DNA from: Pestalotiopsis fici W106-1
Lineage: Eukaryota; Ascomycota; Sordariomycetes; Amphisphaeriales; Sporocadaceae
DNA length: 64,000 bases
Assembly (NCBI RefSeq): GCF_000516985.1
Contig: NW_006917097.1
Span: 1,054,001 to 1,118,000 of the forward strand
Direction: 5' to 3'
This document shows positions 16,422 to 46,186 of the stretch, one piece after another; position 1 is the first letter of the stretch; each line of letters opens with the position of its first letter. The position numbers and the translations under genes are program-made. The notes beneath the pieces were generated by a model. The model was not told the origin of the DNA. It made no database searches and saw only the letters and a program-made list of their open reading frames with translations.

Positions 16422-16865
16422 GGCGTTTCGCTGTTGAATACATGTCAATGGGAATTTCGGTGATGTCTCTCTTGTGATTTTCGAGCTTTCAGTCTCGTGA
16501 TGTAGTCGAAATGTGAGGATAAGCCTAGGCACAAAAGCGCCGAGCCTCATTCATCCGTTTAATGCAAAAGTGATTACCATGGCTAGAGGCCTAACATGGT
16601 GGTATCAATGTGCAATGTAACCGCCCATCTTATTCCCGGTGACATGTAGCATTGCAGCATGCTCCTGCAGTGAGATATGCACAGATGAGTGGTAGTATAA
16701 CCCCACCTTTTAGCCAAGGTTATGACCAGGAGGACTCCGTTTAAACCAATCCGATAATCCCGAACTCGGAACCATGCCAGTAATAACTTGACGACCAGAA
16801 ACACATACACCACAAGATCTACAAACCCGTTCTACATTACCTGCCTGAGCAGCTCTAGTCGCAGC
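16422..16865. other. Intergenic region
   Basis: This covers the sedolisin 3' region and the upstream region of the dehydrogenase. I see no gene or repeat. An in-frame ATG at 16788 upstream of the chosen dehydrogenase start would add 26 residues of unlikely character. Confidence 0.4.
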
Positions 16866-18077
16866 ATGTCATTCCGGGGAAATGGGCTCCGGCTCGCGCA
16901 TAGTCTGCTGAGAACCTCTTATCGAAACATGTCGTCGAGCTCCGTCCCGGCCATGGTTGTGCTGGACGACTATCTCGACATTGCTACACCACATTTTTCT
17001 CATATTCCTTCATCACAGCTCTCAGTCACCACGTTTAAACATGCACTCCCGCCTTTTAGCCATCCAAGCACCTCGGATGCCGACAGGGAAGCCGTCATTG
17101 CCCAGCTCAGGCCATATACCATCATTTCCAGTATGCGGGAGCGTACATCATTTCCGGGAGACCTCTTGCGCTCCCTCCCCAATCTAAAGCTCCTACTGGC
17201 CACTGGGACCCAGTTTGAAACCTTTGATCTTTCCACGGCCTCTAGCCAAGGCATTACCGTTGCCGCAGCCCCGGGACGCGGACGTACCGATGGCCGGACC
17301 TCGCATATCCCGCCCCGGCCCAAGCTGGATATAAAACAGGGCGGCAGCCACCCGGCAACCCAGCACACCTGGGCCATGCTTCTGGCTCTAGCACGCAACG
17401 TGGCTGCCGACGACGCGGCCATGAAAGGGACCTCCAAGGCATGGCAGACGGGCCTGGCGACGGGTCTAACTGGCGCTACTCTCGGCGTGGTGGGACTCGG
17501 CCGGCTGGGGGCGGCAGTGGCGCGGATCGCGACGCTGGCGTTTGGCATGCGCGTCATGTGCTGGAGTGAAAACCTGACGCAGGAAAAGGCGGACCGCATG
17601 GCGCGCGACGTCGGATTGCCGGCGCAGGGCGGGTGTGCCGTCGATTCCCAAGGCAGCACTTTCAAGGCCGTGACCAAGGCCGAGCTTTTCGAGACGGCTG
17701 ATGTGGTTAGTCTGCACTATGTGCTCAGCGAGCGGTCGCGCGGCATTGTTGGGCAGCCAGAGCTGGAGAAGATGAAGAGCTCGGCGCTGATTGTAAATAC
17801 CTCGCGAGGGCCCCTGATTGATCAGGATGCCCTGTACAATGTCCTCTCGAAGGGTGAAATTCGAGGAGCCGCGTTGGACGTTTTTGATTTGGAGCCTCTC
17901 CCAGCAGATAGCCCGTGGCGGTCGACGGAATGGGGAACAAATGGACGCGGAAGGCTCTTGATTACGCCTCACATGGGCTATGTAGAAGAGGGTATCATGC
18001 ACACGTGGTATGAGGAGACTGTTGAAAATGTCGAGAGGTGGCTCCGTGGCGAGCAAGTACTTTACAAACTCAATTGA
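16866..18077 (+). CDS. D-isomer-specific 2-hydroxyacid dehydrogenase
   Basis: Single exon, 403 residues from ATG 16866 (382 if ATG 16929 is used). The NAD-binding motif is VVGLGRLGAAVARIA (GxGxxG). The three catalytic residues sit in the usual order: Arg in NTSRGPLIDQ, Glu in ALDVFDLEPLP and His in ITPHMGY. The family reduces 2-keto acids to D-2-hydroxyacids, or the reverse, with NAD(P)H. The N-terminal 20 residues (SFRGNGLRLAHSLLRTSYRNM) are basic and hydroxylated and could be a mitochondrial presequence if the upstream ATG is used; this is inference. The insert RGRTDGRTSHIPPRP before the NAD motif is longer than in many members. The substrate cannot be named. Confidence 0.92.
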   Translation: MSFRGNGLRLAHSLLRTSYRNMSSSSVPAMVVLDDYLDIATPHFSHIPSSQLSVTTFKHALPPFSHPSTSDADREAVIAQLRPYTIISSMRERTSFPGDLLRSLPNLKLLLATGTQFETFDLSTASSQGITVAAAPGRGRTDGRTSHIPPRPKLDIKQGGSHPATQHTWAMLLALARNVAADDAAMKGTSKAWQTGLATGLTGATLGVVGLGRLGAAVARIATLAFGMRVMCWSENLTQEKADRMARDVGLPAQGGCAVDSQGSTFKAVTKAELFETADVVSLHYVLSERSRGIVGQPELEKMKSSALIVNTSRGPLIDQDALYNVLSKGEIRGAALDVFDLEPLPADSPWRSTEWGTNGRGRLLITPHMGYVEEGIMHTWYEETVENVERWLRGEQVLYKLN

Positions 18078-18919: not shown

Positions 18920-19865
18920 CTTGACACGAGGGTGCTGTCTGATGGTCAGGAGTCTCAAGAGTAGTGGTAAAGGAGACACTATGCGCGGGATGCCGTTCTG
19001 GGGCTGGTAAAGTTCCAAGGTGGAATGGAGAGGAGAGAAAAGTCTGGTCGACACGTACTTATGCAATTTCGAGACGTGTTGACCTGGTCTGTGAATCACT
19101 TGTGAATGGCATCTTGCTCACGCAGGTCTGAAGCAAATTGCAGAAGAGATGGTGAATCACGGAATTGTGTTATTGAGATTGGAGCTTTGCCGGATGTCAT
19201 TCCTGCTTGGTCGGTTTCTATATACATTCCTAGATGTGTTCTGATGATATATCCACCGGCCCAGTCACAGTCTGAGCGTGCCGAGTGCAACCCGAACTGG
19301 AATATCAAACATCATGTACAACGTTTTGATTCCAGGTCTGATTCAGTGCCTTGTCTGAATTTGGTTTACATTGGGTTATCACACTGGAGAGCTCGACGAG
19401 GTTGACGACACCCAGACGATATATAACACCACAATGGATCGTAGTTGATGGCAAAAGGGACACCCATATCATGGCCAGAGCATCAGGTCTTGCGAATCTT
19501 GCCCGGTTGACTTGTATAGAACGCGGTTGGCTTCTGCACTCATAACCATTTACCGCCAATGGAATCGCTACTTTCTTGGAGCGTAAAGTGGTTCTCGAAG
19601 CCTTGAACTGTCTACCCAAAGATACGAGGCTATAGACATGTCTCGAGGCATACTGAATCGTCGGATAGGCGACTGTCTGGAACTGGGTATCCCGGTATTG
19701 ACTTGTCGAGCCAGCGCGAGCTTGCATACCGATATGATTGAGCGTGCGCCAGGCAATGCGGCCAAATCAAGAAACATATGCGTCAAAGGCAGGCTGTTGC
19801 TGCGGCTTGAAGCCATCCACTATAACAGTGCACCAGGTTGAGGAGCCCCCAAGTTTGGCGGGATA
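18920..19865. other. Intergenic region before the repeat clusters
   Basis: Short overlapping ORFs only (up to 140 codons on the minus strand), none with recognisable content. No copies of the 16-bp hairpin repeat are seen until about 19885. Confidence 0.4.
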
Positions 19866-19869
19866 GAAG

Positions 19870-22480
19870 GTTTGCACCCCATGTCCCACACAATTTGTAT
19901 GGGTGCCAAGACCTTTTCGCACCCATACAATTCATGTTTGCACCCACCAAATTGTACCTGCAGCGATGATTTAGTAGGGCGCAAAGCGTGGGGCGCCCAG
20001 TGTAGCACCACGCCAGAGACTCCCAGTGCTGTCACCTACTGCCCCACACAATTTGTATGGGTGCAAAGCAGCCTATTCATGTTTGCACCCACCAAATTGT
20101 ACCTACAGCAATAATTTGTATGGGTGCAATCCAGCCCAGCAACGTTTGCACCCACCAAATGATACCTGCTACCACGAATTGTAAGGGTGCAATCCAGCCA
20201 TCAGCCATGTGTATTCATTCACAACTCTTCCACCACTGCGCTCAATCTAGAAATAAATATTCAAAATTCTCGCAAGTACCCATAAGATATTTACAATCAG
20301 GTGCATCGTTTTGACAGCTTGCAATTATGCATCTCCAGCTGCGCGCAGGTCTGTGATCGAGGGCGACGCATCGTGTTGCACCACCATAAAGAGGCTCAGC
20401 ATGACTGCAATCAAACGAGCTGCATCGCTGTCCATACTTGGATGCATGCAAAATCAATTGACAGTTCTTTCGATTGATTGACTCTGAATGGTATAAGAAG
20501 TTCTAGACAACATCATTGGGATGAATGCGCTGCGACACGAGTGCATGGTATTTGGTAGGTGTCATAATGGTGTAGCTTGTCTTTGGGGGGGCAGCGCCTA
20601 AATTGTATGGGTGCAAAGATGTTTAGCACCCATACAAATTTGGTGGGTGCATTTGGTTTCTATGGGCGCAAACATCTTGTATGGGTGCTAAGAGGTTTGC
20701 ACCCATACAAATTTAGTGCAGCACCTGGTCTTTGGTGGGTGCAAAGAATTTGGCGCCCATACAAGTTACATAGGGGTGGTGATTTTGTATGGGTGCAAAA
20801 TCATTAGCACCCATACAAATTTATATGGCGTCCCAATCTTTGGTAGGTGCCTGGGTGCAACGATTTATTTTGTATGGGTGCAAAGACCTTTGCACCCATA
20901 GAAAAATACGTGGGGCAGTCGGCTTTGTATGGGTGCAAAGATCTTGTACGGGTGCAGCGCCAATTTAGGTGGGTGCAAAGATCTTTGCACCCATATAATT
21001 GTACGTGGGGCGGGTGATTTTGTATGGGTGCAAACCATACAAAGTTGCGTGGGGCAGTCGGCTTTGTATGGGTGCAAACAAAATCAATGTAGCACTACCT
21101 ATCTGCTGCACCCAGAACCGTGATACTTGACCATCCCAATAGCGATGCGCCTGTACATAGATGGAATCGTTGCAATACTTTTAAAATGTACACATCTCTG
21201 GCTGGTAGACAGTTGCATCAATTTCCATGTGCCCAGTAATTGATTTGCGCCCATACAATTCTGTTGAGTGCATCGCTTTTTCTATGGGTGCAAACATTCT
21301 TTTCACCCATACAATTCTACGTGGGGCAGGTGTTTTGTATGGGTGCAAAGAGCCCTGGATCTTAGCACCCATACAATCTCATATGGTGCCCAAATCTTTG
21401 GTAGGTGCAAAGAGCTTAGCACCCATACAAATTCTTAGCACTCATACACAATTAGCTGCACCATTGCGCCCATACAAAAAGCAATGCACCCAGCTATGGC
21501 CGGCACCCAGCGCCAGCATCGTTGCAGCTCTTCAAAAGCGCTGCACCCATACAGGAAGCGATGGCATCCTGCATTACACGACCTTGCGAGATGCACCACG
21601 AGTTCTTGATCCTGCGACATGATCTGCGTGTGCAAATACATACGTATATGGCGCAATGCATTGGAGAATACCGTGGCCAGTATCGCATTTGCTGAGGGAA
21701 TGGTGCGCCATTAGGTGCAATGGTTGATTTGCGCCCATACAAACCTAGTGAGTGCATCGCTTTTGTATGGGTGCAAAACGCTTTGCACCTATACAATTGT
21801 ACGTGGGGCAGGTGGTTTTGTATGGGTGCAAATATTTGGCACCGCATTTTGTATGGGTGCAAAGAATGTTTGCACCCATAGAAAAATACGTGGGGCAAGT
21901 GTTTTGTATGGGTGCAAACTTTGGAAGCTCGATTGCACCCATACAAAAGTTGTAGCCCGCCTAATTTGTATGGGTGCAATCCAGCAGTGGTGCAGTTTGC
22001 ACCCATACAAAAAGCTGCCCCACACTTTTTGGTGCACTGCTGGTTTGCACCCATACAAAAGTTGTAGCCCCACCAAATTTGTATGGGTGCAAAGCATCTT
22101 TGCACCCATAGAAAAATACGTGGGGCAAGTGTTTTGTATGGGTGCAAAAAAAAGTGTTGCACCTACAGCGCCTATTTTAGGTGGGTGCAAAGAATGTTTG
22201 CACCCATACAATTTTAGGCGAGGAGGTGACTTTGTATGGGTGCAAAAAATTTGTATGGATGCAAAAGACTTGGCACCCATACAAAAGTCTCAGCACCTAG
22301 CACCCATATTTGCCATACACAATGACATTTGCACCCATACAAAATCAGCCCCACACATTTTTCTATGGGTGCAAACCTCAGCCTTCCACTTTGCACCCAT
22401 ACAAATGATTAGCACCCATACAAGATTAGCAGCCACACAAATTCTTAGCACCCATACATTGGCTGGGTGCAACACCAAAC
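19870..22480. repeat. Hairpin-repeat cluster 1: TTTGTATGGGTGCAAA and its reverse complement
   Basis: The core GTATGGGTGC occurs exactly about 19 times and its reverse complement GCACCCATAC about 16 times, with many one-mismatch copies. Adjacent opposite copies are separated by 4-20 bases and form potential hairpins with stems near 16 bp, for example at 20609-20641 and 20793-20820. Further arms, CCCCAC on the left and ACGTGGGGC on the right, often flank the pair. A larger unit, hairpin with TTTGCACCCATAG, then AAAAATACGTGGGGCA and another core, recurs near 20870, 21850 and 22080. Gaps without copies lie at about 20190-20600, 21085-21235 and 21580-21720. There is no TE protein. ORFs inside (up to 277 codons) are created by the repeat, which lacks stops in all six frames. 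Confidence 0.95.
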
Positions 22481-25439
22481 CACTTCACCCTTATATGACA
22501 GCGCCGCGATGCACGACGTCTTGCACAAAGACAACACAAAAGGATTGAATATTCAACGACATTTCATCTTATCCATGGATCACGAAAAGATGTACAAGTT
22601 CGTGTCGCATGATCCATTCTCGAGCGACTGATTGTCAGGTCATCAGGTCAGAGCTCGTCTGCATGATTCAAACTCTTGGACGTAATAGTTGCATTTCCAT
22701 CTTGATTGAATTGATCGGGCTCACCAAGTTGGCCTCGACGCCCCAAACTTGAATCTTTTGATGAAAAGTATGGAGCAATTTCGCTTCTTTCAAAGTTTGC
22801 ACTGCATAGATGCCAGCGAAAGCAGTCCGGGTTGCAAGCCATTCTGCTCGGCCGGATTTAGAACACCTCCTTCCAGAGGTTCTTTAGATATCATGCCAAG
22901 CGAGAGAATCCCACACATTGTAATTCCATGGCAACTCGCCGGCCAAAAGCATCAAAATGTCTCGGGCCGAATCGACAAGCCGGAACAATTCATCAACAGA
23001 GTAATAGGACCCGCAGGCTCGTGACACTTGCACAATGGAAATACCCATAGATGTGCCCAAGAATCGTCGACCTTGTCCTGCTTCGCCGTCGCCATGGCTG
23101 ACATGGACCTGAAGCCTGGGGTTGTGACGGCTTCGAAAACTCCAAGGGCTCATCAGTTGCCTTTCGTGTCCTCTTGCTCCATAGTTCGAGGCGCGGTTGT
23201 TCCTCTTGACAGCTTGGATGCGTCATTTGCTTCGTCCAAAGTATCAACGCAGCTGGATGGAATGAAGAGCCTCCTGGCATACCAAACGGGCTGAACCGAA
23301 ATGACAATTCTGAACTCCATCCAGCCGATTTCCATCTGTCTGTAGCAATTTCATCTACGTTGGCACGCACCTTGTCACCATTCTGTGGAGGTCGAAGTCG
23401 AAACGAGAAGGTGTTGCTAGTAGAAGAACTCGTTAAGACAAGTCGAGCCGTAATATATAGACACGGTTCTTTGGTTCGGGATTGGGAATAATGAGAATCA
23501 TGCGGATATATTTCTGGCGGCTGAAATGTTGATCCGGACATGCCAAACCATCTCTTGGATCAATTCCAATCAAACTACAGTCGTCAGCCTGTTGCCAACG
23601 TCCTGTTCCTATTCATGGCCGACCTGAAAAGATACTTTGACTAGAGCTGCCATTTGAATGGAGTTTACGAATCTTCGGCCGAGTATTTGATTCACACCTA
23701 GGCATCTCACAAGGATGGAAAGGGGAAACGTTCTCGTTTCTTCTCTCTGTGATATACGTCATGCTTTGGAGAGTTTGACGCGCGCAGAGGCCGGCAATGA
23801 CAAAGTGATATTGGCATATGAGTAATCACAAAGTAGGGAGTTATTTTTCTGCCATTGAAATACAACCATCTGAGAGTTCCCGTGCCTGCTACTTTTATTC
23901 GTGCTGCCTCCATTCGGACAGCCAAGCACTCAGCTTCAGGTCACTTGGTCGCTTGCCATAATCCGCAGGGAATCTATCTAAACACCAAGAATAGATTACT
24001 GTCCCCAATCAGAGAAACACAGGTAACCTCGACCAAGGAATAACAGGTGGGATATCAAAAGGACGTTGCCTGATCGGCTGGGCAATGTCGCGAAAACCAA
24101 CACCACAGGGACTCGAGGCCAAGAGACATACTCTGGGCCGACCTGAGACGTCGTTGGTCAAAGAAGAGTATCCTAATCTGCACAAGCTGGTAGCCAAGCA
24201 TTTGGAACCCCTTCCGAGGACCTTGCCACAGAGCACGGTGGAATGGACGGCCTCCTTGAACATATGGCACATCATTTCAGGATTGGGAATCTCGAATACT
24301 CATCGTTCGATGACAATCTTTGGGAGAAACTCAACAAGCGTGATGAATCCAAAGGCTCACTCGTGACCATGCTCTCTCCTAGTCGAACTCTTGAAAAAAT
24401 GACAACAGATTGGATAGACGAAGCCGAGCTGAGATACACGATTCTGGCAGAGCGACGGCTGAGCAGGACAGTGTCGGCCCTTCTTGGGGATATCTATAGG
24501 CGCTTCATGGCTAAAGAGCCTCGAATCTGTAGCAGCAAGGCTTTGGGAGCTTGCGAGCCGGTCTCATTCCGTTGATGAGTTGTTCTAGGCTGTCAATTCG
24601 GCATCATGAGTTCCTGGCTGCCATTGTGGTTGAAAATGGAATCATCAAAGATTGTGAGGCATGGACTATTCGCTCCCAATGAGGCTCTATGGGAGCAGTT
24701 GATTATTCTCTCGAAAGCCGTGACTCATTCTCTGGATCCTTCACGCGACTGGCATTTTGGATCCGGTCAGCTCATCTATATGGACTTGATCTGCAGCTGT
24801 GCATATAGTCGTCTGAAGCAGGATGATTCTCAGAGGTATGGGTTTTCTGTGGAATGTCAGGTAATTTTGATACCGCTACAAGCCTCGGTCCGTATGGTTA
24901 TTCACACCAGACATGCCGCTTGACAAGTGCCTTGCAATCAGGATTGCCAGTCCGAGTGGATCGACGAGATGAATAACAGAGGAATCTTTCAAGAGGTGTG
25001 ATCCATTTACTTTCGCACCGGGATACTTTTCTTCTTTCACGGAAAGACTGATGAATCAGTGTATTCTTGACTGGCCGAATGACCCAGAAGCATCAATTTT
25101 CTGTCCTTGACCTTGACCGGCTGTCTCATTGGGGGTGGTGACACTGTTCTTCTTTCATACAACATCGAAACACTGCCATTTGCCTTGTTCTTATTGTTCT
25201 TATTGTTCCTCGACCCATCCGTATACTTGCCAGCACGATATTCCCCGGACCCGGATGAGCGCCGCCAAGTTCCGGACAATCTGCGCGAACCTTGAAGCGG
25301 CGTATCCAAGGACTTGTTGCTATACGAAAAACACGAGACGCTCAAGCAAAGCATGAGCCGTGTAATTCGGTTCCATATCGATGCGACGTGATCAAGAAAT
25401 TTTGCAGCGCAACAGATTGCATTACCTTGAGCTCAACAC
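22481..25439. other. Inter-cluster region of decayed sequence
   Basis: No intact gene. A helicase-family relic lies at 22741-22880. Frames that look protein-like but are interrupted occur on the minus strand at about 22884-23541 and on the plus strand at about 24085-24575 and 24606-24923, where neighbouring frames seem to continue one another after shifts. I cannot assign these to a family. Hairpin cores are absent here. Confidence 0.4.
22741..22880 (-). pseudogene. Relic of the degenerate DEAH-helicase-like family
   Basis: Reading the minus strand, the block GIYAVQT, then EAKLLHT, then a QK..QV segment, is encoded at 22741-22816. It is the same, residue for residue in most places, as the segment just after the P-loop of the gene at 40686. 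Bases align at roughly three in four over about 80 nt. Upstream, the TSGRR position matches ASGKS of the P-loop, but it is followed by changed residues and preceded by a stop. The fragment has no intact frame around it, so it is a decayed third copy, some 18 kb from the tandem pair. Confidence 0.7.
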
Positions 25440-28165
25440 GCTATTGCATATGCCTCCTATATGGGTGCAACGATACTGGAGCTCGCTTTTGTATGGGTGC
25501 GACACTTTTTTCACCCACCTATCCACCAAATTTGTTCAGGTGCAAAGGAGTCGTTGCACCTGTATAAATCTTGGTGACAAGTTGGTAGCACCCGCTTCCC
25601 CACACGATTTGTATGGGTGCTAAATCTCTTTGCACCCATACAAATTTTGGTGACACGGTGGGGTCCAACGACTTTGTATGGGTGCAAAGATTCTTTCCCC
25701 ACACATTTTATATGGGTGCAAATGTTGGTGTCTTTCCCCACACTATTTGTATGGGTGCCAAAACCTTTTGCACCCATACAAATTTTGGTGACAGGGTGGG
25801 GTCCAACGAATTTGTATGGGTGCAAAGCAGCTTTTCACCCATACAAATTTGGCGACAAGGTGGGTGCCACGATTCTGTAGAGGTGCAACAGGCTTGCAGC
25901 GTCCATGCGAATGGATGATATGAGGTGCACTCTCGAGTCACTGCAGCAGAGACTCGGTGAGCTTGGGCAGAAATCAGGCGAGATCTAGATGATGCAGACA
26001 TGTGCAGCCAGGTTGCGTGCATCGAGTCTTGGTAATAGCCTTGTCTAAGCTTGGGATTTTGTATGGGTGCAAAAGAGGTTTGCACCCATATAAAATAGTG
26101 TGGGGGTGGTGATTTGTATGGGTGCAATCGAGTTTGTACTGAAATTTGTATGGGTGCAATTGAAGTTTGCACCCATATAAAATAGTGTGGGGGTGGTGAT
26201 TTGTATGGGTGCAAATCGAGTTTGCAACAATGGCACCTGGGCATGCACTGAAATTTGTATGGGCGCAAACCTCTTTTGCACCTATACAAAATAGTGTGGG
26301 GGTGGTGATTTGTATGGGTGCAATCGAGTTTGCACCCAACAAATTCGGGTGGTAGCGCACTGCAACGATGGCACCTAGGCATGTACTAAAATTTGTATGG
26401 GCGCAAAAGAGGTTTGCACTCATATAATTATACGTGGGGCAGGTGCTTTTGTATGGGTGCAAAGATCTTAGCACCCACACAAGATGTTTGCACCCATACA
26501 AATCATATGCCCCACGTATTTTCGATGGGTGCTAAAAGTTGTAGCACCCATACAAATTTGGTGCTGTACCTGATTCTCCGCAAATGCAATAATCAATCTG
26601 CACTCAATGAGAATCTTCTGGTGCACCTGTTTTTCTGTAGGAGCGACAATTATCTTGCACCCCAGTGAATCTGGCGATGCATGCATTTCTTGGTGGTGCA
26701 TCTCCTTTTCTATAAAGGCAATGATCAATTTGCACGCATACAAATCTGGCTATGCTGGTCTGCTGGCGGGCTGCAATAGGTGTTGCACCTAGTGTCCCAT
26801 ATAGATTTGTATGGGTGCAAAGATGTTTTGCACCCATACAAATTTGGTGGGTGCATTTGCTTTCTATGGGAGCAAAGCTTGCGTAGGGAGTTCCCCACAC
26901 TATTTGTATGGGTGCAAAGGTGTTTAGCACCCATACAAATTTGGTGGGTGCATTCGGTTTCTATGGGTGCAAAGCGGGAAGTTCCCCATACTATTTACCA
27001 CTATTTACCTGGCACCCGCCGCATTGCACCCTTATGTTCAATACAATTTGTATGGGTGCAAAGATGTTTTGCACCCATACAAATTTGGTGAGTGCATTTG
27101 CTTTCTATGGGCGCAAAGAATTCCCCACGCCATACTGGGTGATTGCACCATGTGTCTCATACCATTTCTAGGTGCAACGCCTTTTACCAGCAGCCTTTCT
27201 ATGGATGCAAATTTCTCCCTGTGCCATGCACCCAGCCAAAACATATGCTCATGAGTTCTTGTGCCTCTATATGATTCTCTGTGTTCTCGTATTTATATGA
27301 GACATAAACACCTACTCATGCAAAGGCTAATATGGACGCATCACGGACTTGCAGTGCTGGACCGATGCACGCTCCCAAAATGTAAGAGTGCCCTGTTGTT
27401 GCACCTGATTTCCTATGCGTGCAACATTTCAAAATTGGATTGGCTCTGCACACACAGCTGGGAAATGACATTTCTGACTTGATACTGATCAATGGCATCT
27501 TGTCCCGTAGCAATCCTTTGGCGTTGGCGGGCTGCATTGAACACTGGTTTGTACGGGCGCAAAGGGCTTGTTGCACTCGTACAAATTTGGTTGGTTGGGG
27601 GGTGCAACGCATAGGTATGGAATGGATTTTGTATGGGTGCAAAGGGGTTCTGTGCTGTTTGCACCCATACAAATTGTGTGGGGAAAAAACAGTTGCACCC
27701 GCCTTGTCACCAAATTTGTATGGGTGCAAAGGGCTTTTTACACCCATATAACTTTGGTTTGCTAGCAGGTGCAGCGACCATAGGCAGGTACCTAGTAGGT
27801 AATTTGTTTGGGTGCCAAGGGTTTCCCCACACAAAATCGTTTGCACTCACCTCATCACCAAAATTCTATGGGTGCAAACACCCCTTTGCACCCATACAAA
27901 GTGTGTGGGGAAGCTTTTGCACCCATACAAAACCATTACACCCACCTTGTCACCAAATTTCTATGGGTGCAAACACCCCTTTGCACCTATACAAACTTAG
28001 TGTGGGGAAACCTTTCCATGTTTGCACCCATACAAAATTATTGCACCCGCCTTGTCACTCAATTTGTATGGGTGCAACAACCACTTTACACCCATACAAA
28101 TTCCGTTGGCTAGTGGGTGAAATGACTGTAGGCTGCACTTGCACCCACCAAACCATGCACTCTGA
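25440..28165. repeat. Hairpin-repeat cluster 2: same 16-bp family
   Basis: About 17 exact GTATGGGTGC and 11 exact GCACCCATAC copies, with many near-copies, in the same paired arrangement as cluster 1. Nested palindromes are clear at about 25597-25663 and 25737-25802, where CCCCACAC, core, loop, reverse core and GTGGGG follow in order. A unit with GTGTGGGGGTGGTGATTTG plus core is repeated at about 26097, 26185 and 26299. A unit with core, GATGTTT, reverse core, AATTTGGTGGGTGCATTTG and a degenerate core recurs near 26810, 26905 and 27050 and also in cluster 1 at 20609. A copy-free gap lies at about 27210-27540. I find no gene or TE protein. Confidence 0.95.
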
Positions 28166-30921
28166 CCAAGCGACGTATTCTCCGTCTCTACCTTGATCAA
28201 GGAGAATTACAGAGTCATCAGTCTAATGCGTCAATTCGCAGGATGCGAGGAAAACAATGATCAAAGCGCAGCGTCTCGCATCCAGCGCGTGCAGGTATCG
28301 TGGTGCGCTGGTCCTTCAGTGGGCTTTAGGGGCCTGTCCACTGAGACAGCCTCTGCTGGAGCAACTTTTCACTCTCAACCGCAACCGTCCACGCAATCAA
28401 GCTGCAATCGTGGAGAACAAGTTGCGCGATTCCTCTTAATTGCTTAATTAACCATCTCCAACTGGCTACATTATGCTTTCTTTTGATTTGGTAGAGTTGC
28501 AGTCTGCGTAGCCGGTCATGATGTACCAGGCGGCTGCCATATTATACTTTGTGCTACGGTTCCGAGTGATTCACAGCCTCGCTACTCATATCGGTCGAGA
28601 GCGCAACCACGCAGCATTCTTAGGGCTTTATCTGTCCGGGTCAAGTGGATGATACTACTAGATAAGCTTCCTTTTGTCAAGCCGATACTGGCAAACCGTC
28701 GTCACGGAGCCAAGAGCAAGAGAGCTTGAAGGCATTCCGCGGGATCCAGAACTGGAACATGATAGATACGTGGTATACCACTGCGCAGACATTGCTCGCG
28801 TTGCTGATTCCAAGACTCAACCCAATGACAGGAGAGTCAGTCGATTATTCAAGCCAATCTTCCACGGTGTAGATTGCCATCCATGGCAGTTCACAATGCC
28901 AGTCCTTGAAACTCTTTTACAACGAGAGCATGACTGACAATCAACAGGGAGCGATACTGTTCTCCCCTTCCAGGACTCGGGAGGGTTCACCGGCCTTCAG
29001 AGTCAGTCTTGCGAACTGGATCGCCCAAGATGGCGACACAACACCCCCTTCCGCCGAGCCTTTAAATTATAAGGGGAACCCTGGCAAACACCAGCAGCCT
29101 CGATGCTCGATGTGAACATCGTGGTCCCCCCCTGCCTGAGCACGAGAACCCGTCTGCCCCCAGGTCAGTCTTGCTACTGATTTACATCCGGGGAGATTCG
29201 CCATGCCCGACTTCCTCAAGTCACATCATTCGTTCGTCAACTCCCTCTTGGATATATCGTCCAGCCTCTGTTTCTAGTGGCTATCCATCTCTTCCGTCTC
29301 GTCTTGACGGCCTAGCCCCCCTGGACACGAGTCCGGTGCTCGTACAGATCGAAGGGGGAAACATCTTGTAAAGAATTTCACCATCTCGATAAGCGTAGAG
29401 TGTTTTCGACTTTGTCAAACAATGTCTCTGGTACAATTGTTCTCACTCTTGAGACGTTTTCAAGAACCCATCCAGCTCTTCCGGTAGGATACTCCCGGGC
29501 AGCAAGATCCTTTTCTACCAATCTCCTTTGTATCGGGGAAAGATGTTTGTTCTGCCGCTCCAAGTGAGCAATTCCCAAAGCTCAGGCCGGGCCGAAATTC
29601 CTAAAAGCATCGAGCTTCTATGAGCTGCGGAAAATTGCGTCCTCGTGCTACCATTCTGGCTACATAGTTGGGGGATCGTTCTCACGTGGTCACAACTGGT
29701 TCAAGACTTGCAAATGACGAAGAGACGTGCTATGGATATGATCAATGTAGTTGTGTTGGCCGTGTCGGGGCACGGCCGACCTCACCCGCTCCAATGCAAA
29801 CTCGCCAGTCCATATGTAAAGAGTTTGTTGGAGCGGATCTTGGGTCGATTGGCTCGTTTGGCTACAAGTGTGTCGATTCCGAGTTGCAGGGACATGAGAG
29901 GCCTACGGGCAGTTTTCAAACTAGTGTGACATTGTATTGCACATTGGGTAGCCAGGAATGTCGCCGCAGTCTCTGTCGGAGGGACCGACACAAGTCTCGA
30001 GGCAGTGATATTTCGACCACAGTTGACGCACACAAAGCCACTGGCTCTGCACCAGATCTGCACAAAGCTTGCCACTTTCATTGGACCATTGTCCGTAAGC
30101 AAGACCTCGAAGCCGTTTCAATTTTCAAGGACGCAAACCAACGGACACGACTTTACAGGGTTGCCAATGCAGAGTATGAAACTAGTTCTTGGGCAGGAGA
30201 TAATGGAGTAGTCCCAGTCAAAGAAACACGGGAGCATGCCGAGGGCACTGGTACCGAGACATCCTGTCTCTTATAACAGAGGCGGCAAGATGGCCCAGAT
30301 AGCAAACTAGACGCTACTATTTGAGTCAACATTCCAATGCGGCGCAATGGTCATGGCATTATTGGGAATTTTTACGGAATTACATTGAGAATACGCAGAA
30401 TCCTCATTCACATATGTGTAGTTGAGGTTGTAGTTATATACTTGCGACCGCACCCAACCTCGTGATTTACGTTTTAGCAGTGGTGATCGGGCTCGCTCCA
30501 CGAAGGAGTGTAAATAACTTGTAGAATCACGAATGAATTCACAGCTACAGCCCTATTGATCCAGTGTCACGTAGGAGACTGCTAAACGTGGAATGGTTCG
30601 TCGCGTGATTGGATTATTTCCATTGACGATGCCGTTTATTCCGCAACATAAAAAGCTGCAGCTTGAAATATTGCAGCGTGACAAGGTTGGAGTCTGGAAA
30701 AATAATGCAAAAAGTATCGTGAGTGAAAGAATTGCCGTATTAGGAAAGGGTGACGTAAAAGGCCTAAGCGTTGGACCCGACCCGGCGGGCTGGGTCCTCT
30801 AATACTAGTATAAAAAGCTATAGCGTGGGAATGTCCAGCGTGCTAGCTTGCACCAAACTCAACTGCAGCCTGTTGGAACTCATTCATTGATGAAATGATC
30901 CACTAGTGTGATTCCTCGGTG
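28166..30921. other. Gene-poor region after repeat cluster 2
   Basis: Several ORFs of 60-200 codons overlap in different frames on both strands (for example plus 28674-28937 and 29668-30276, minus 29378-29578). None shows a family motif, signal peptide or splice-supported extension. Some may be eroded genes. The hairpin repeat is absent. Confidence 0.4.
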
Positions 30922-32008
30922 CTAATGACTTAGGTGTTGCACAATCTCGGCTACTTGAGCAAAGGCGAGACTCTCCATTGTCTCATTCCAAAGCCTTTTC
31001 GCAATCCTACTGCCTTCCTCTGTATAGACGAGGGGAGCCATGCTGGGTTCAAAATTAGCAATCAGGTATTTAGAAAGCGCTGGACACTTACGGTTGCAAT
31101 TTCCCATCTTCTATGTAGTGCCCATGAGACTCGGTACCGTGCCTGACTGCAGCATCTGTAAGTGCTTGGGCGCCGACAGAGGTAGAACGACCAATGGCTC
31201 GCACAGCCGCATTGTAGATGTAGCCCAGAACGCTGCCATTCCATTCGCTGGTCAGGCTAGACCCATAGCATAGTCCTGGATTGGGTGCGTTGACAACTGC
31301 CACGGATGATGGGATGCGCTTTGCAAGTTCCGACAGAAACAGCTGGCCGAGCAACTTGGAGTTCCAATAGCGTTGGGTACCGTCGAAATTGTCGGCTTTA
31401 TCAAAAGCAGCCAGTAGAGGGGCCGATTCCCTCTCTTTGAATGGCGCCCAAGCAGCAGTCTCGGAAGAGACAAGTAGAATCCGACCTGGGCCCTTGAGAG
31501 ACCTCTTTTCTTGCATTATCGGTAATACTAGGATGGTAAGGAGAGCAAGCGATAAATAATTTGTCTGCATGCACTCCTCGTGTCCTGTTTCGTTATTGAG
31601 CTGGAACGACCTTTTGTTGAGACCTGCATTGTGGACAAAAATGTCGAGGCATTTCAGCGGCTTGAGACGTTGTGCAAACTTTGTAATGGAGTCATAGCTG
31701 GACAGATCCAATTGCCATACTTCGACAATCTGCTCATCGGCAACTCTCTTGGACAATAATATGTTGCGTGCCGCTTCACCTTTGCTGGTACTTCTTACCG
31801 CAAGGATTAGCCTACTGACGCCAAGATCCATCAGCTGGCAACTGCATTCGAATCCGATGCCAGTGTTGGAGCCGGTTACTATGACTGTTTGGCCAGCGAG
31901 ATTCACCTCGTCCCGCGTCAGGACCGCTGTTTGCCGGAAAAGCTGGCGTTTGAAAAAGGACAAGAAGCTTGCCCGCTTTTCTGGTGTTATGTCAAAGTTT
32001 GTCTCCAT
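30922..32008 (-). CDS. Short-chain dehydrogenase/reductase (SDR)
   Basis: Two exons (32008-31092 and 31042-30922) with a 49-nt GT-AG intron encode 345 residues. The classical SDR pattern is present: cofactor motif TGSNTGIG, HNAG in place of NNAG, catalytic Ser in LLVSSETAAW and Tyr/Lys in YWNSKLLGQL. The second exon adds the normal C-terminus PMAPLVYTEEGSRIAKRLW, which supports the intron. It resembles fungal retinol-dehydrogenase-like or WWOX-like SDRs of secondary metabolism. The start METNFDIT is preferred over upstream in-frame ATG 32128. It is the last gene of a trio with the NTF2-like protein and a Zn2Cys6 regulator. The substrate is unknown. Confidence 0.92.
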
Positions 32009-32644
32009 GGTCGCGCTGTAGCACAAAGGGATAGTCGGTCTGCAACGTGGAGCACAGTATAAGAGGCGCTGGGTTTCGTTCGACTGGCGAGATGTTCGTG
32101 ATGGTTCTAAATTGGTGGTCAAGTTCAAGAAAAGTCTGAACCTCTCTATTTAATAGAACTTCTCTGACCAGTTTTGTCAGTGATATCGGACGCGGAGATG
32201 AATTTGAAGCCGCCTTGTTCCATGTCCAAAGTCTCGATACGCTGAGCCGAGAGCTGAGATCGGCTTTACATCCCCTGCAAGTCCGGTCCGGATCTAAAGC
32301 CACTGAGATTGATATCGTCAATCAATTCTGCCAGACGACTCATACCGATGCCACTGTAGCCGGCTTTGGCGCAGCCAATAAGCAATTTCTCCTTATAGAC
32401 TCGTCCATACCATTGTGCCTGCCGGGCATAAGGTTTGAAGCGCGACCGTTGTTTACACCTGGTACGGCGTAGCAACATTATGGGCTAATCTATACATTAC
32501 CAGATCAAGGCAGCATCTAGCAGTTCCAAGCTTGTGTGCTTGTTTTATCCTACAAGACATCATTCATGGCAGGGCTTTGCATCGAAAGTGGGAGGAATCA
32601 ATCAATTATTCCATATACCTCAATCCAGGTAATCAAATCCCATT
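32009..32644. other. Intergenic region
   Basis: This spacer separates the SDR gene from the NTF2-like gene, both on the minus strand. It must hold the SDR promoter. I see no further gene. Confidence 0.35.
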
Positions 32645-36087: not shown

Positions 36088-37707
36088 CTAGAAGAAACGA
36101 CCACGTCTTCCAACAGAAGAATTCCTTGAACCGCGACCGGCTCCGCGGCCTGAGCGACTGCGCTGGCCACGACCGCGTTCTGGGTCAAGCTCCTGTCTCG
36201 TCGGGTGGCTGGTTGTGGGAGTTCTGTTGGACATTGGGCGACCCAGTGCGTCAAATATCGGCATCTCGAGATGTGAGTTCAAGTGCTCTGCCGGAAGGAA
36301 ATAGCGGCCTGTCGTGGGAGCTCTGCTAGACATTGGACGTCCCAGTGCGTCAAATATCGGCATCTCGAGATCAGAATCGGATTGCGCTACCGCATGCAAG
36401 GGACGGTTGTTTGAGCTCGAGGGGTCTTTTGGGGAAAATTGCGCATTTTGTGGCGTGGATGGTCCGAGTGGGAGAAGAAGGCCGGGTTCAATCTTTGGCT
36501 TCTTTGGTCGAAAGCCTCCCACGATGTCCAAAGATTCCACTGATTCTCGTTTCAATAAAGATTGCCCTTGGCTTTGTCTTTGAAGAGGCCGGGGAGTTGA
36601 TTCTTCTGCCAAAGAGGCACCTCTTTCGATGCTTGACATGCTTGCAGCGGCGGGAGATGACGCAGCATTGAATCCAGAGGTTGGAATCCTAAGGTTCACG
36701 TCTGATGTATTCGTCAAACCATTCATCTCGTGATTGGTTTCTCTGGCTGGAGTAATCTCTTCGCCCCCATGGGCAGGGACACTGATCTTCTTGTAAATCA
36801 AGACAAAAGTACCGGGGCCTTCGAGTTCCCATTCATCATGTGTGATATTGGCCATCACCGCGCTTTCCGGGTGTTGGACATGACTACCGTCGAGACGGTA
36901 GAGTCGGACGCTGTCCATGCTTGCTGTCGGGTGCATGTATACAACTCCAACCAAGGCATACTGGACATTGGTGCGCCCAAGTCGGAATCGATGGTCAACA
37001 GGATTAACTGACCATTCAGAGACGTCAAAAGAAAGTCTCTCTAGCGATGAAAAGTTGTGCCATTCTGTGCCATCATTTGTGTAATGGACAAATAGAAAGT
37101 TTGGTTTGGCACACATGTGCCTAATGACTCTTTCGCCGTGACTTCTGGCATCGTCTGAATGATCAAAGATGGGAAAGAGGCCCATGATTCTGTCGGCCAA
37201 AGGCTCTTGACCATTCCACCGAATGATGGATTTCTTGGCAACGTCCAATGCCGAAAGGATGTGATCGACCGTCCACTGTCTCGAACCAGCGTTGGGACTG
37301 CATGTCCACGTCTTTGGGTGATACAAGCCAAAGTTCGGGTCCGAGAAGAGTGTATCCATCATCAAGTCGCTCTCCAAGAGCTCCTGGAAGCGAGGCGTGT
37401 GGCCTTGGCTCTTTCCAAAGATCTCGGCAATCTTTGATCTCAGTTGAAGCTCGCTAGCTTTCGGAGGATTGGTAACTTTTTGCCATGCAAGCTTCAAGAT
37501 GGGGTTGAGCTCTTCATTGCGTCGAGCAAGATCATTGGATCGATAGTTTTCTGGTACAAACTTTGCAAGATGTCGGAGAAGAACCAGCAGGCAGTTCAAG
37601 GCAGGCCAATCGTTGGTCTGATCGCTGCAGCCTGGCCAAACGTTTTGCAGTTGATGATTTGCCAAAAAGGCGTCCGGGTGGTTTCGCAAGTCGTTGTCTG
37701 ACTCCAT
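36088..37707 (-). CDS. Unknown protein, possibly a degenerate ubiquitin-specific-protease fold
   Basis: A single exon of 539 residues from the ATG at 37705-37707; the frame stays open upstream to about 37959, but that part overlaps a 30-bp tandem repeat and is less likely coding. The segment YALVGVVYMHPTASMDSVRL, then YRLDG, then WELEGPGTFVLIYKK resembles the end of USP-type deubiquitinases, where a His-containing GHY box should sit at MDSVRLY. N-terminally, LNCLLVLLRHLAKF resembles the helix after the USP Cys box, with Thr at the expected Cys position. If so, the protein cannot cleave ubiquitin. The C-terminal third is disordered, holds two copies of LEMPIFDALGRPMS and ends in an Arg/Gly-rich GRGxRSRSGRGAGRG tail that may bind RNA. 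The fold call is inference. Confidence 0.75.
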   Translation of the reverse strand: MESDNDLRNHPDAFLANHQLQNVWPGCSDQTNDWPALNCLLVLLRHLAKFVPENYRSNDLARRNEELNPILKLAWQKVTNPPKASELQLRSKIAEIFGKSQGHTPRFQELLESDLMMDTLFSDPNFGLYHPKTWTCSPNAGSRQWTVDHILSALDVAKKSIIRWNGQEPLADRIMGLFPIFDHSDDARSHGERVIRHMCAKPNFLFVHYTNDGTEWHNFSSLERLSFDVSEWSVNPVDHRFRLGRTNVQYALVGVVYMHPTASMDSVRLYRLDGSHVQHPESAVMANITHDEWELEGPGTFVLIYKKISVPAHGGEEITPARETNHEMNGLTNTSDVNLRIPTSGFNAASSPAAASMSSIERGASLAEESTPRPLQRQSQGQSLLKRESVESLDIVGGFRPKKPKIEPGLLLPLGPSTPQNAQFSPKDPSSSNNRPLHAVAQSDSDLEMPIFDALGRPMSSRAPTTGRYFLPAEHLNSHLEMPIFDALGRPMSNRTPTTSHPTRQELDPERGRGQRSRSGRGAGRGSRNSSVGRRGRFF

Positions 37708-38062
37708 CTTGCAGCGCTTGTGATGATGCCGGTGAAGATGAGGGTCAACTACAATGACAAGTCGTTTGTCCTTGAAGCTGGACAATGAAGAGGGGTCAAG
37801 TTGGCGGTCCAGCAAGGCAAATAAAAAAAAGTGGTGGGCGACATTGGCGGCCTGCAGGTTAGAACAATCCATTCTCCGTTTGAATGACGTAGAACAATCC
37901 ATTCTCGTTTGAAAGGTGCAGAACAATCCATCCTCCGTTTGCAAGACGTTGAACTGCACCCACTACTACCGGTTGATTTCTACATGGACACCTCCAAGCT
38001 TTCCATCTTTCTCATTCATCGAGACAAGAACTGAGCCTCTCTTCTAGGCTGATCAGCTCACC
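37708..38062. promoter_or_regulatory. Divergent promoter region with 30-bp tandem repeat
   Basis: This spacer separates the USP-like gene (-) from the helicase-like gene (+). At 37861-37949 lie three tandem copies of about 30 bp built on AGAACAATCCATTCTCCGTT; the lengths are 30, 29 and 30, so the reading frame is not conserved between copies. This argues that the repeat is not coding. Confidence 0.5.
37861..37949. repeat. Three tandem copies of a 30-bp unit
   Basis: The copies occupy 37861-37890, 37891-37919 and 37920-37949 and share AGAACAATCCAT followed by C/T-rich CTCCGTTTG. They differ at a few positions. They lie in the spacer between two divergent starts and could be upstream activating sites. 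Confidence 0.85.
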
Positions 38063-40399
38063 ATGGATCCATCACGACCGCAACCACGACCAAACCCAGC
38101 CTATACGGCTGACCAAGCCGTGCCCAGCGCACAAAACAAGCATCTTGTCCAGTTCGCAGACAACCTCGCGTCCCATGTGATTCCCGGCATCGTCACAGCC
38201 CTGAGAAAGAATCAGGCGTCTGGCGTCCGGGCAATTCACATTGTCTCTCCTTATTCAACTGGCAAAAGTACCCAAATGGTGCCAGAAATCTGGACACGCA
38301 TCATATCCATGTGGCCGAACTCGCGCGGGACATATGTCCAAGCAACTGAATACCAAGCATACAGCCTTCACAGGCACCTTCAGACAACAAACGTTACATT
38401 TGGAAATGTCCTAGGCAAAGCAGATCTATACACGACTGCCAGTGGCCCACCGGCCAATACGCTTACCCTTACTATTTACAAGAGCTTGGAAGGAATTCTT
38501 GCCGACAAAATCCAACAACGCACCTCGGAACCCCCCCTTGGTCCGCTCACTATTTTCATTGATCTGGAAAAGGTCCCCAGTATTCGTGTCCAAGTCACGC
38601 TCGGTCTCTTGGTGACCTGGCTCTCCCAAGTCGCACCTCGGGCGGCTCAGCAAGGTCACAATATCACCCTGGTGACCTTGGCAGGCCACGAGGCGAGTGA
38701 TGTGTATAAGACACTTCATAGCTTTCTTGGTACAGAGGTTGCGCCACTTGTTCTTTCAGTTCCAGATCCTCAACTGCCAAGACAGGTAGTCTCCATCCGT
38801 GACAAGAGAGATGACCAAGCCCCTGGGATCTTGCAGATACTTGTCGACGATTTCAAGGACTTCTTGCAGTCTCCGGAGGACTTGCACCTTCCACCACCAT
38901 GCATTGTTGTATTCGTCTCCGAGGTTGAAGCCAACACACTGCTTGGTCAGCCCTTGTCTGAAATGATTGGCGACGAGCAGCAACCTCCCATCCCTATACC
39001 CATACATCACCTGACTGCCAAGTCGAGCGAAGGAGATGTACAAAAGATTACATTGGCGCAGCACCCGCAGATTATTCGCGTCGATCCCTCATTTCAATCA
39101 GTCTTGTCAGTCAACGCCACTCATGTCATCTCCTTGGGTCGCAAGATCATTCGCATCTATGAAGAACACTCCAGCCAGTTTGTCTCGTCCGCTGTCCGGC
39201 TGAGCAAGAATGAACTAAGCTGGGAGAAGGCCTGGGCAGCAGCCTCCAACCTTTCAAGTGTCAAGCTATTGACAGCAGATGGTGACGCGATGCCTCTGAC
39301 GAGGCCAGAGAACCCTCTCGAAGGCGACCTCATGTACCTCGCCTACAGTCTTGTCTACCATTGGGGGTCTACCGAGTGGAAGTCGATCCCGATTCCCTGC
39401 CTTCCCTACACTAACCCAGTTCATCTCAACGAAATGTCAAGGCGCATTGAAATCATGTCAGTGGTCAAGCAGGATCCCAGCGGTGCTTGGCAGGTTCCAC
39501 CTAGCTTGCGTTATTTTAACGACTTGCTCTACACGCCTCTTAATGAACCGCGTAGTGTTCAGCTTGCCTGTCTGATATCACACATTTACGAAATGAGACA
39601 AACTCTGTCTACCAAGGCTGTCCGTCTACTCATTCGTCTAGCAGCAATTATTAGCTGTGGCATTGCGAAGCTCATGAACATTGATGAGGAGCAAAGCAGC
39701 AAGTCTGGTCTCAAATCCCTGGGATTTCGAAATAGTCTCATCTTCCAACTGGACATTGCAGCAGCTTCGTCTGGAATCGGCCAAACTATGGTATGCTACG
39801 GATCACTCTGGGCCGCACTTGGTTTGTGGCAAAAACAAGTCGTCGAAACCAAAGGATTCGAGATCCTTGGGAACCATGGCAAGGATGGCACAATCAAAGT
39901 GGCCAATACTGCAGTCACTTTGCATCTTGCTACATGCAAGAAAGTCTTGGAACGTGCCAAACAGCTAGAGGGTGTGGTCGAATATGCACTTCTCTCCCCT
40001 GACCAGGAGATTTCAGAAACCACCGCGGACGCCCTTGGACTGGAACAAGTCAACAACATTCTCCTGCAGTCTTACATGCACCAACAGGTACTATTCAGAC
40101 CCTTGAGATCAGGCAGCAACGAACTTGACTCTATTGATCTTATCTCTAGTCGAAAGGTGACCGTCATGTTGCCTACTGCTCGCATAATCGATGGCGAATC
40201 GATCGGAGCGCAACAAGAGACTAATAACGGCCAACGGGCCCCCTTTTCTGCCATATATACATCCATACATGACGGAGACGATGGAAACCTGCAGCCAGAA
40301 GATTTGACATTTGTTCCTTATAAGTCTCACAAGCATTTAAGGTCCATACTGCCTTGTACCATTTCCCTAGCCCTGAGATCATCAAGCATAACAAGGTAA
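38063..40399 (+). CDS. Degenerate DEAH/RHA-type helicase-like protein
   Basis: Single exon, 778 residues. DEAH-like helicase landmarks are recognisable in order, but altered. Motif I is intact (SPYSTGKST, residues 62-70). A motif Ia-like strand follows (GTYVQATEYQAYSLHRHL), then a TDG-like site changed to LEG (YKSLEGIL). Motif II reads FIDLEK (D167-L-E169) rather than DEAH. Motif IV is CIVVFVSEVEAN, and a motif V/VI region is ATHVISLGRK then LSKNELSWEKAWAA, where the arginine finger motif QRxGRxGR is lost. It probably binds a nucleotide but may not unwind RNA. It is the intact member of a tandem pair with the gene at 40686. A viral-type helicase origin was considered, but the HA2-like region of the paralogue favours a cellular DEAH origin. 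Confidence 0.85.
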   Translation: MDPSRPQPRPNPAYTADQAVPSAQNKHLVQFADNLASHVIPGIVTALRKNQASGVRAIHIVSPYSTGKSTQMVPEIWTRIISMWPNSRGTYVQATEYQAYSLHRHLQTTNVTFGNVLGKADLYTTASGPPANTLTLTIYKSLEGILADKIQQRTSEPPLGPLTIFIDLEKVPSIRVQVTLGLLVTWLSQVAPRAAQQGHNITLVTLAGHEASDVYKTLHSFLGTEVAPLVLSVPDPQLPRQVVSIRDKRDDQAPGILQILVDDFKDFLQSPEDLHLPPPCIVVFVSEVEANTLLGQPLSEMIGDEQQPPIPIPIHHLTAKSSEGDVQKITLAQHPQIIRVDPSFQSVLSVNATHVISLGRKIIRIYEEHSSQFVSSAVRLSKNELSWEKAWAAASNLSSVKLLTADGDAMPLTRPENPLEGDLMYLAYSLVYHWGSTEWKSIPIPCLPYTNPVHLNEMSRRIEIMSVVKQDPSGAWQVPPSLRYFNDLLYTPLNEPRSVQLACLISHIYEMRQTLSTKAVRLLIRLAAIISCGIAKLMNIDEEQSSKSGLKSLGFRNSLIFQLDIAAASSGIGQTMVCYGSLWAALGLWQKQVVETKGFEILGNHGKDGTIKVANTAVTLHLATCKKVLERAKQLEGVVEYALLSPDQEISETTADALGLEQVNNILLQSYMHQQVLFRPLRSGSNELDSIDLISSRKVTVMLPTARIIDGESIGAQQETNNGQRAPFSAIYTSIHDGDDGNLQPEDLTFVPYKSHKHLRSILPCTISLALRSSSITR

Positions 40400-40429
40400 T
40401 GTCACGGTAAACCGTTGACTTAGATTAGA

Positions 40430-40560
40430 TCCTTAATTAATAAAATCCATTAAGCCGATTATCCAGCTAATTTATTTATAATTAAATTTATTAATACTAT
40501 TGACGCGTGATGCCATGGGGCCTGGAGCTTACTGCTTGATACCCCCCCCCCCCCCTCGCA
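40430..40560. other. AT-rich stretch and 14-C run between helicase-like paralogues
   Basis: Bases 40430-40505 are strongly AT-rich (for example TTTATTTATAATTAAATTTA), unlike the genes on both sides, and 40542-40555 is an uninterrupted run of 14 C. The run may be a replication-slippage site or a boundary of an old insertion. No terminal repeats are seen. Confidence 0.6.
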
Positions 40561-40685
40561 ACAAACGCGGTACTTGAAGTGCAGACTGACCACAAGCTCT
40601 CCATGCCCACCAATCCTTCATCATCTCAACATCTCGGCACACTACCTCTCAACTCTTCATTCACGAAAATCCTTCAAGCAGTAAG

Positions 40686-42887: not shown

Positions 42888-43668
42888 TACCGCAACAATG
42901 CAAAATAGACTAGCATACAGTTAATTCAAAAGGAGCACAAGCTCTAGTAGTACAACTTTGATCTCCATCCATGACCGTGACCGTTGCATACGCCCACGTC
43001 AGGGCTTTTTTCGCAATGTAGTGAAGGGTTGAAGGCAGAGGGCAGTTAGGGGTGGATTATGACGAAACTGAACTCTGACCTACTAGAATTAACGGGAGCC
43101 CCTATTTATAGGCGGTCGATCGCTAACGCAACAAGGCTGGCTATATCAAGGTAGCTGGTCTACTTTTAGCACTTGACATCCCATCCTCGGACAATCAATG
43201 TCACTCATGTAGGGTAACCGTCACTGGGCCGAGTGAACTTGATAGAGTACATATAGATTGCATTTACATGATGAAGTCCTGATCGCTTCAGTGTTCACAT
43301 ATCCTCTTTAAAGACTCGACCAGGTCTATCCATCCTTTATCCAGTACTTCCAAGCAGTGTGGAATTGTTTCACGTAGCTAATTCAGGGCTTGTAATGCGA
43401 CATTGGAAGACGTGGATTGGACAAGGACAAGAATAAAATGACGGGGTCGATGAATAGCCACTAGATTAGATCTACTTCTGGTATCTAGTGCCAGGGCCAG
43501 TCGCCCCGGGGCCCAAAGGACGCTAGTGGTGGGGAAACCAGCCAGAACCAAGCTTATGCCGCCAGTCCAGTTACCCAACGATCCAGGGCCTGGGTCCAAA
43601 CCTTGACTTTTCAATCCATCAAGATTCAAGCTCATCAGCTCATCTACACCAAATCAGCATCATTCATC
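42888..43668. other. Intergenic region
   Basis: No gene seen. A TATTTATA-type element near 43100 is too far from the next ATG (43669) to be assigned with confidence. Confidence 0.35.
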
Positions 43669-44700: not shown

Positions 44701-44847
44701 AACAATGATCATCCTACCAACGCAGACCAAAAAGGTGCGCGCGAAAGAGCGCTACTCTCTGTCCGGCAGCACGCAGCCAAAGCCGAAAAGACCCCAAGTC
44801 CCGCACTCCTTTCCGATATTCCTTTGGATGCTGATCCAGACCAAGAA

Positions 44848-45528: not shown

Positions 45529-46186
45529 CTGACACGAATGTGATTTAAATAGTAAATAAAAACTTTTTCATTTGAATTTGCTCTCCATAAAGCTCCAACC
45601 TTGGTCCGGAACACTGTAGTTGTCTTAATGCTGGATTAGAATGAATCGAAACATTGAAATGCACCGGGAATCAACGGAAACTCGCCAAAAATAAACGTCA
45701 CGTAAAAGGTCTGTATTGTAAGACGGAAAAGAAATGAGCTTACTGCCCTTGAAGGCCTCGATCAGCCAATTAATTATCCCTTTTAACCTTTAGTTCATGC
45801 TTATCCTCACGGTTGCAGCCGATCCCATGAAGGGTTTGACTGGATAGAGGGAATGTCCTTGTGCCAATCTTGGAGTACAATCGATTTATAATTCTCGAGC
45901 TCATTGACAGGAAAGGACTCGAGGTGTAAATTGATAGACTCGTCTATAAAGAACTGAATTTCGCGGTGATAAACATGTATTGTTTCAGATATGGACAATG
46001 TAGACTATTCTCCTGTTAATTGACCACCCAGCTCCAAGCTCATCCGCAGACGGATCATGGTGATCAGTACGAGTGTACTGTTGGCGCAGTGAAATGACAA
46101 TGAGGGCTTACTCTAGAGTTCATGATGCAACAGTGACAAAAAGACACGTATGAGGGGAATCGATATATTTTAATTAGGTACAAATT
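45529..46186. other. Intergenic region between convergent genes
   Basis: AT-rich 3' regions. No feature seen apart from short ORFs. Confidence 0.35.

Follow-up and report, generated by a model that had tools for sequence, protein, structure and literature searches.

A repeated 16-bp site in two blocks between convergent genes

The DNA analysed here (the window) is a stretch of 64,000 nucleotides corresponding to C7:1054001-1118000 in the Pestalotiopsis fici W106-1 genome, which comprises 51.7 Mb in 20 contigs. The GMC oxidoreductase encoded in it matches Pestalotiopsis sp. NC0098 at 81%, Seiridium cupressi at 75%, and one further relative at 87%. An interval of approximately 13 kb with little coding signal lies between two open reading frames (ORFs) that converge on it: a 2-hydroxyacid dehydrogenase on the plus strand (16758..18077, stop to stop; PF02826, 1.7e-43) and a short-chain dehydrogenase on the minus strand (31088..32149, stop to stop; PF00106, 2.3e-18). 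Since the 3' ends of both face the interval, an ordinary or shared promoter role for the two neighbours is unlikely.

This interval holds an array of a repeated site with the 16-bp consensus TTTGTATGGGTGCAAA, organized in two blocks. The window contains 63 exact copies of GTATGGGTGC, compared to a mean of 0.12 and a maximum of 2 in 100 shuffles. The preliminary description had reported about 35 exact copies of the core within 2.6 kb, and precisely 35 are counted in 19897-22457; the block it described is therefore as stated, but the extent it gave to the array stopped short of a second block (25491-28075) with 28 more copies. If the 10-bp core may differ at no more than two positions, 134 matches are found in 19800-28200 (69 on the plus strand and 65 on the minus strand). 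Block 1 (19870..22480) holds 68 of them, in both orientations and with recurrent ACGTGGGGCA linkers, and block 2 (25450..28120) holds 65, with recurrent GTGTGGGG and TGGTGACA linkers; a single match falls between the blocks. The remaining 55.6 kb of the window contain 45 core matches, 38 of them with two mismatches. With at most one mismatch there are 52 and 49 copies in blocks 1 and 2, versus 0.73 and 0.77 on average in Markov simulations (60 per block), and only one in the spacer, one in the left flank, and none in the right flank; the block borders are sharp.

The two blocks are separated by a unique 3-kb spacer (22480..25450), whose sole match in the genome is itself; the right flank of the array is likewise single copy. 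A hidden gene in the spacer was considered and rejected, since a comparison of its minus-strand ORF 22993-23559 with 59 candidate proteins gave no homologue at E ≤ 0.001. This ORF lacks a Pfam match, and the best codon-usage segment of the spacer reaches 17.2 bits (24201-24452). Ten ORFs of the window, of which nine match Pfam, served to train the codon-usage score, and across 18.1-31.0 kb this score picks out five weak segments of 12–19 bits; the main segments of those nine ORFs reach 42–228 bits, values flattered by having trained the score. None of six ORFs in 18.1-31.0 kb has a Pfam match at E 0.01. The weak score and these six ORFs led to the rejection of a protein-coding array, although a short exon may lie inside this interval.

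The ratio of observed to expected CpG is low in both blocks (0.50 in 19870-22480 and 0.42 in 25450-28120, versus 0.81 for the window and 0.88 for the spacer), and the site itself lacks CpG. An origin of the repeat by RIP was rejected because two ratios are shifted otherwise than RIP would give: TA/AT is 0.67 in both blocks and 0.60 in the window as a whole, and (CA+TG)/(AC+GT) is 1.66 and 1.54 versus 1.38. Two of 20 stretches sampled elsewhere in the genome are AT-rich, C1:500000-509999 (21.5% GC, TA/AT 1.19) and C1:2000000-2009999 (32% GC), and are possibly RIP-altered or centromeric. Further along the window, 36088-49265 carries a run of long ORFs devoid of Pfam matches (36088-37962 and seven of the ten others scanned). 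The protein of 36088-37962 matched only itself in a large protein search and has no Pfam match, and the Pfam-less open frame 43489-44700 contains a 12-bp tandem repeat of 5.9 copies at 43722-43792.

Confinement of the array to one locus

The array is real, exceptional, and, within the reach of the searches, confined to a single locus. Scattering of the core through the genome had been set beforehand as an outcome that would count against the array, and it is not observed: the exact 15-mer TTGTATGGGTGCAAA occurs 41 times in the genome, 40 of them in the array and one on another contig. The lone outside copy lies at C1:4102097-4102111, and the paired-site search gave no partner for it. When the genome was searched at the DNA level, block 1 returned 41 matches and the 26040-27110 part of block 2 returned 45, all of them at the locus among the best candidates scored. 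The paired pattern ATGGGTGC-(0-20)-GCACCCAT gave 20 forward and 20 reverse matches in the genome, with 40/40 at the locus, compared to none for its reversed-pattern control. Near copies are less restricted, as the 16-mer with up to three mismatches occurs at 558 places versus 369 for its control; 105 of these are in the array, which leaves a mild scattered excess outside it (about 453 versus 369). Finally, the commonest non-simple 10-mer per 3 kb is found 36 and 32 times in the blocks and 2–6 times in the sampled stretches (20 stretches of 10 kb on contigs C1–C3, 200 kb of the 51.7 Mb).

The preliminary description had recognised no known MITE, telomeric, or rDNA repeat in the array, and this holds as far as tested, since no dispersed copies of the array were found. 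The dispersion expected of a MITE is reduced to the single exact 15-mer on C1, and no Rfam family matches the window at gathering score. The array is not telomeric in sequence, the telomere repeat of this organism being TTAGGG, runs of which are found at the end of C2 and the starts of C14 and C15, and also on C17. In two scans of prokaryote and viral contigs, TTGTATGGGTGCAAA occurs once in each stretch listed (80 of at least 120 in one scan and 67 of 67 in the other), and these matches are taken as chance. Among the publications listed on such arrays and on Rap1, none showed the motif in this setting, and publications containing the 10-mer had unrelated titles among the matches listed.

This confinement bears directly on the suggestion that a short palindromic transposable element, akin to MITEs or REPINs and strongly inclined to insert locally, has built up the array as a nest. 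Paired inverted 16-mers do look like miniature elements, and the units lie in both orientations. However, the exact paired pattern is found at 20 places, all of whose rows on both strands fall in the locus, and neither block 1 nor the middle of block 2 has matches beyond it among the best candidates scored. Because the searches gave no further copy of the paired unit in the genome, such a nest, also proposed in the preliminary description, is disfavoured and now appears very improbable.

Pairing, folding, and conservation of the sites

Neighbouring sites within 60 bp alternate in orientation in 84 of 115 pairs (mean 57.8 and maximum 76 in 2000 shuffles). Plus-minus neighbours (n=47) are separated by 0–8 bp in 34 cases, 32 of them by 4–6 bp, and minus-plus neighbours (n=46) by 17–19 bp in 21 cases. 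A total of 42 of the 47 plus-minus neighbours lie within 16 bp, accounting for 84 of 133 non-overlapping sites, which bears out the earlier view of the array as consisting mostly of close inverted pairs. The commonest distances between site centres are 21, 55, and 34 bp, and the two preferred gaps define a unit of approximately 55 bp. An example of a perfect pair is 26806..26842, where a plus site and a minus site enclose the 5-bp loop GATGT, while the pair at 20869..20904 (TTTGTATGGG versus CCCATAGAAA, loop GACC) bears an uncompensated change in one arm.

The preliminary description had placed its emphasis on hairpins. A 491-nt stretch of the array indeed folds far better than 100 shuffles (z -12.7 on each strand), as inverted-repeat DNA does by construction, yet the pairing between arms is not preserved. 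In 34 close pairs, a departure from the consensus affects one arm alone 86 times, and four variants are shared, with 3.1 expected; at three positions both arms depart but differently. The mean identity of partner arms (0.836, or 0.777 in columns unused for detection) equals that of permuted partners (0.8355; p 0.46), and the same lack of covariation is seen in a wider plus-minus set (42 pairs) and in two minus-plus sets (22 and 33 pairs). Functional hairpins were therefore rejected despite the strong predicted folding, no compensatory change between arms having been found in the 34 close pairs. Transcription of the array into a structured long non-coding RNA, or into a source of hairpins for small-RNA silencing, would agree with the folding of both strands and with the scarcity of coding signal, but it is rendered improbable by the lack of arm covariation and of an Rfam match at gathering score. 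RNA repeats with a strand-specific function are unbalanced in orientation, unlike the 69:65 balance observed here, and a perfect stem of some 16 bp makes a short substrate for Dicer.

The arrangement of short sites alternating in orientation at regular spacing (84/115; gaps of 4–6 and 17–19 bp) is reminiscent of bacterial REPs, which the available text of PMC2817692 describes as regularly spaced, alternating in orientation within BIMEs, and dispersed in high copy. Unlike REPs, the array occupies one eukaryotic locus and its stems do not co-vary; the many extragenic loci per genome that characterize REPs and BIMEs were not found in the genome-wide searches, among the best candidates scored.

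The array also bears the marks of local duplication. TRF detects short patches only, of 1.9–3.9 copies and with periods of 19, 55, 63, 65, 73, and 86–87 bp, and no head-to-tail tandem of one unit across the whole array, as expected of a satellite or minisatellite, was found by it. A 70-bp unit is common to both blocks with 96% identity, linkers also recur in inverted copies, and some loops are reverse complements of each other (such as AGAGG/CCTCT). Linker words built on a TGGG core, which is that of the site, are specific to one block, with ACGTGGGG and GTGGGGCA in block 1 and CCCCACAC in block 2. The distances between site centres contain a component near 10.75 bp of 0.339 (maximum 0.155 in 300 jittered sets). 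Nevertheless, helical phasing is suggestive only, because a null in which spacing classes are shifted as wholes, so that the duplications are kept, attains the observed component in 16 of 400 trials.

These features give weight to a neutral local satellite, in which slippage, template switching, and unequal exchange would have repeatedly copied an inverted unit of about 55 bp, devoid of function, in both orientations; breakpoints near the stem edges would leave the 16-bp core intact and give the loops a new appearance. The internal tandem duplicates, the unit shared between blocks, the inverted linkers and loops, the result of the duplication-respecting null, the restriction to a single locus, and the lack of a known binder all fit such growth, which is a serious possibility. 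On the other hand, simple duplication would be expected to preserve loops and linkers no less than cores, but the loops are near random in sequence and nearly constant in length. Correction by template switching should moreover make partner arms alike, and they are not; the absent covariation thus also speaks against the perfection of imperfect palindromes by this process.

What the array conserves is the site rather than its surroundings. The 5-bp loops (n=17) have an identity of 0.318, compared to 0.255 for shuffled letters and a maximum of 0.341 among the shuffles. In a first comparison, based on overlapping internal alignments, identity was 91% in site columns and 66% elsewhere. In eight disjoint internal duplicates, where a site column is one lying in a site of either copy, mismatches amount to 107 of 936 in site columns versus 125 of 492 elsewhere (Fisher p 3e-11). 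All these measurements come from one array, whose copies are related by descent and not independent, the site columns were chosen by their likeness to the consensus, and the duplicate alignments were anchored on sites, so the figures are indications rather than clean probabilities. The profile of the 134 sites is uneven: the first, second, and third T are kept in 90, 117, and 124 sites, the adjacent G in 89, and the last two A in 119 and 97. Two of the outer T (117 and 124) and one outer A (119) are thus kept even though they were unused for detection, in a pattern that resembles that of a binding site. Loops that are almost random, sites that are 84% alike, and mismatches less than half as frequent at sites as elsewhere in duplicates together fit protein-binding sites that are read individually. 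Conservation of the site beyond its neighbouring sequence, as expected of a homotypic array, is hence observed within this one array.

Candidate proteins and a putative binding platform

The reading tentatively preferred here, which falls a little short of an even chance, is that of a locus-specific platform of putative binding sites for one protein. We judge an individually read, selected platform of this kind to be slightly likelier than neutral local growth. More than 100 duplex-DNA sites for one sequence-specific protein would make up a natural homotypic array at one chromosomal locus. With the sites of an inverted pair spaced by about two turns of the helix, in alternation with steps of 34–35 bp, many copies of the protein could occupy neighbouring sites, rather in the manner of an engineered lacO array, and the resulting high-occupancy platform could serve silencing, anchoring, pairing, or fork control. 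Selection, rather than the copying process, would then keep the sites. Among the suggestions of the preliminary description, a non-coding array acting as a possible protein-binding platform is the best supported, with binding itself being what we infer from the sites.

As for the protein, the core TGTATGGGTG resembles the yeast Rap1 site, and the genome encodes a double-Myb protein of Rap1 type. Its gene lies on the minus strand at C7:1755060-1758134, approximately 0.68 Mb from the array on the same contig. With the exons read apart and unspliced, its pieces match BRCT_2 (27.2 bits, cut-off 27.3), Myb_Rap1 twice (best 8.2e-16, whole piece), and ARID (7.1e-13). A genome-wide search for PF09197 (Rap1-DNA-bind) gave no match, its controls likewise matching nowhere; on the exons of this gene PF09197 gives matches below the cut-off, with E values of 0.0033 and 0.027. 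No solved structure is significantly matched by the Myb exons, the best hits being human RAP1 in both cases (E 0.21 and 0.083).

It can be envisaged that the TGTATGGGTG core is bound by this BRCT-Myb-Myb-ARID protein, which would then seed telomere-like or silent chromatin at an internal position, a variant of the platform reading that is in itself unlikely. The resemblance of the core, the presence of the gene, and linkers rich in related TGGG words point in this direction, and Rap1 motifs appear as ACCCAGACACC/ACCCATACACC and AAACCCACACCCC/ACACCCACACACC in a table of PMC10944472. Against it, the telomeres of this organism are made of TTAGGG, the resemblance was noticed after the fact, the Myb exons lack a significant structural match, and Rap1 is presented in PMC7744550 as a late arrival, acting as the major telomere-binding protein in budding yeasts. 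Furthermore, TGTATGGGTGY occurs 98 times in the genome, 64 of them in the array, and the 34 occurrences elsewhere compare to 38 for the reversed-pattern control. The yeast-like core is thus not enriched outside the array, and there is no sign of its genome-wide use. A C2H2 zinc-finger protein would suit the TGGG-rich site equally well, and both types of candidate binder are to be taken as leads only.

Several known systems share part of this organization. The family of repeats (FR) of EBV oriP comprises about 20 EBNA1 sites on a viral episome, unlike the array, whose two blocks carry more than 100 sites on a fungal chromosome, with a candidate binder only. FR is described in part of PMC2654434 as a partitioning element through which EBNA1 impedes fork migration; the array is similar to it in being a dense cluster of sites, and it has been proposed here to be likewise a platform for one protein. 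The clustering of short motifs on a chromosome is also found in the meiotic pairing centres of Caenorhabditis elegans, where, as stated in a section of PMC4555223, such motifs recruit a pairing protein such as HIM-8. However, C. elegans has one centre per chromosome, and the searches of the fungal genome revealed no further array of this motif. Budding-yeast Rap1 arrays, at telomeres and silencers, are comparable through the likeness of the core and the presence of a Rap1-type gene, with binding putative, and differ from the array, which is internal rather than telomeric, consists mostly of inverted pairs, and has a core that is not enriched elsewhere. Multiple bound copies of Rap1 can stimulate breakage, according to an excerpt of PMC4532487.

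In its most specific form, the platform reading would make the two blocks, with their more than 100 sites flanking a non-coding core and loaded by a dedicated or Rap1-type protein, a unique chromosomal address for anchoring, pairing, or silencing, a proposal that is doubtful as it stands. Should a protein-binding platform be confirmed, a filamentous fungus would possess a naturally occurring equivalent of engineered lacO arrays; to our knowledge, few natural arrays this dense for a single protein exist, most of them viral, telomeric, or from nematodes. It would also offer a defined fungal locus for asking how arrays of binding sites arise and are kept, and what effects they have on replication, pairing, and silencing. 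If the array is instead neutral, it would indicate that inverted units can multiply at a single site of the genome, in either orientation, to form an array that stays there.
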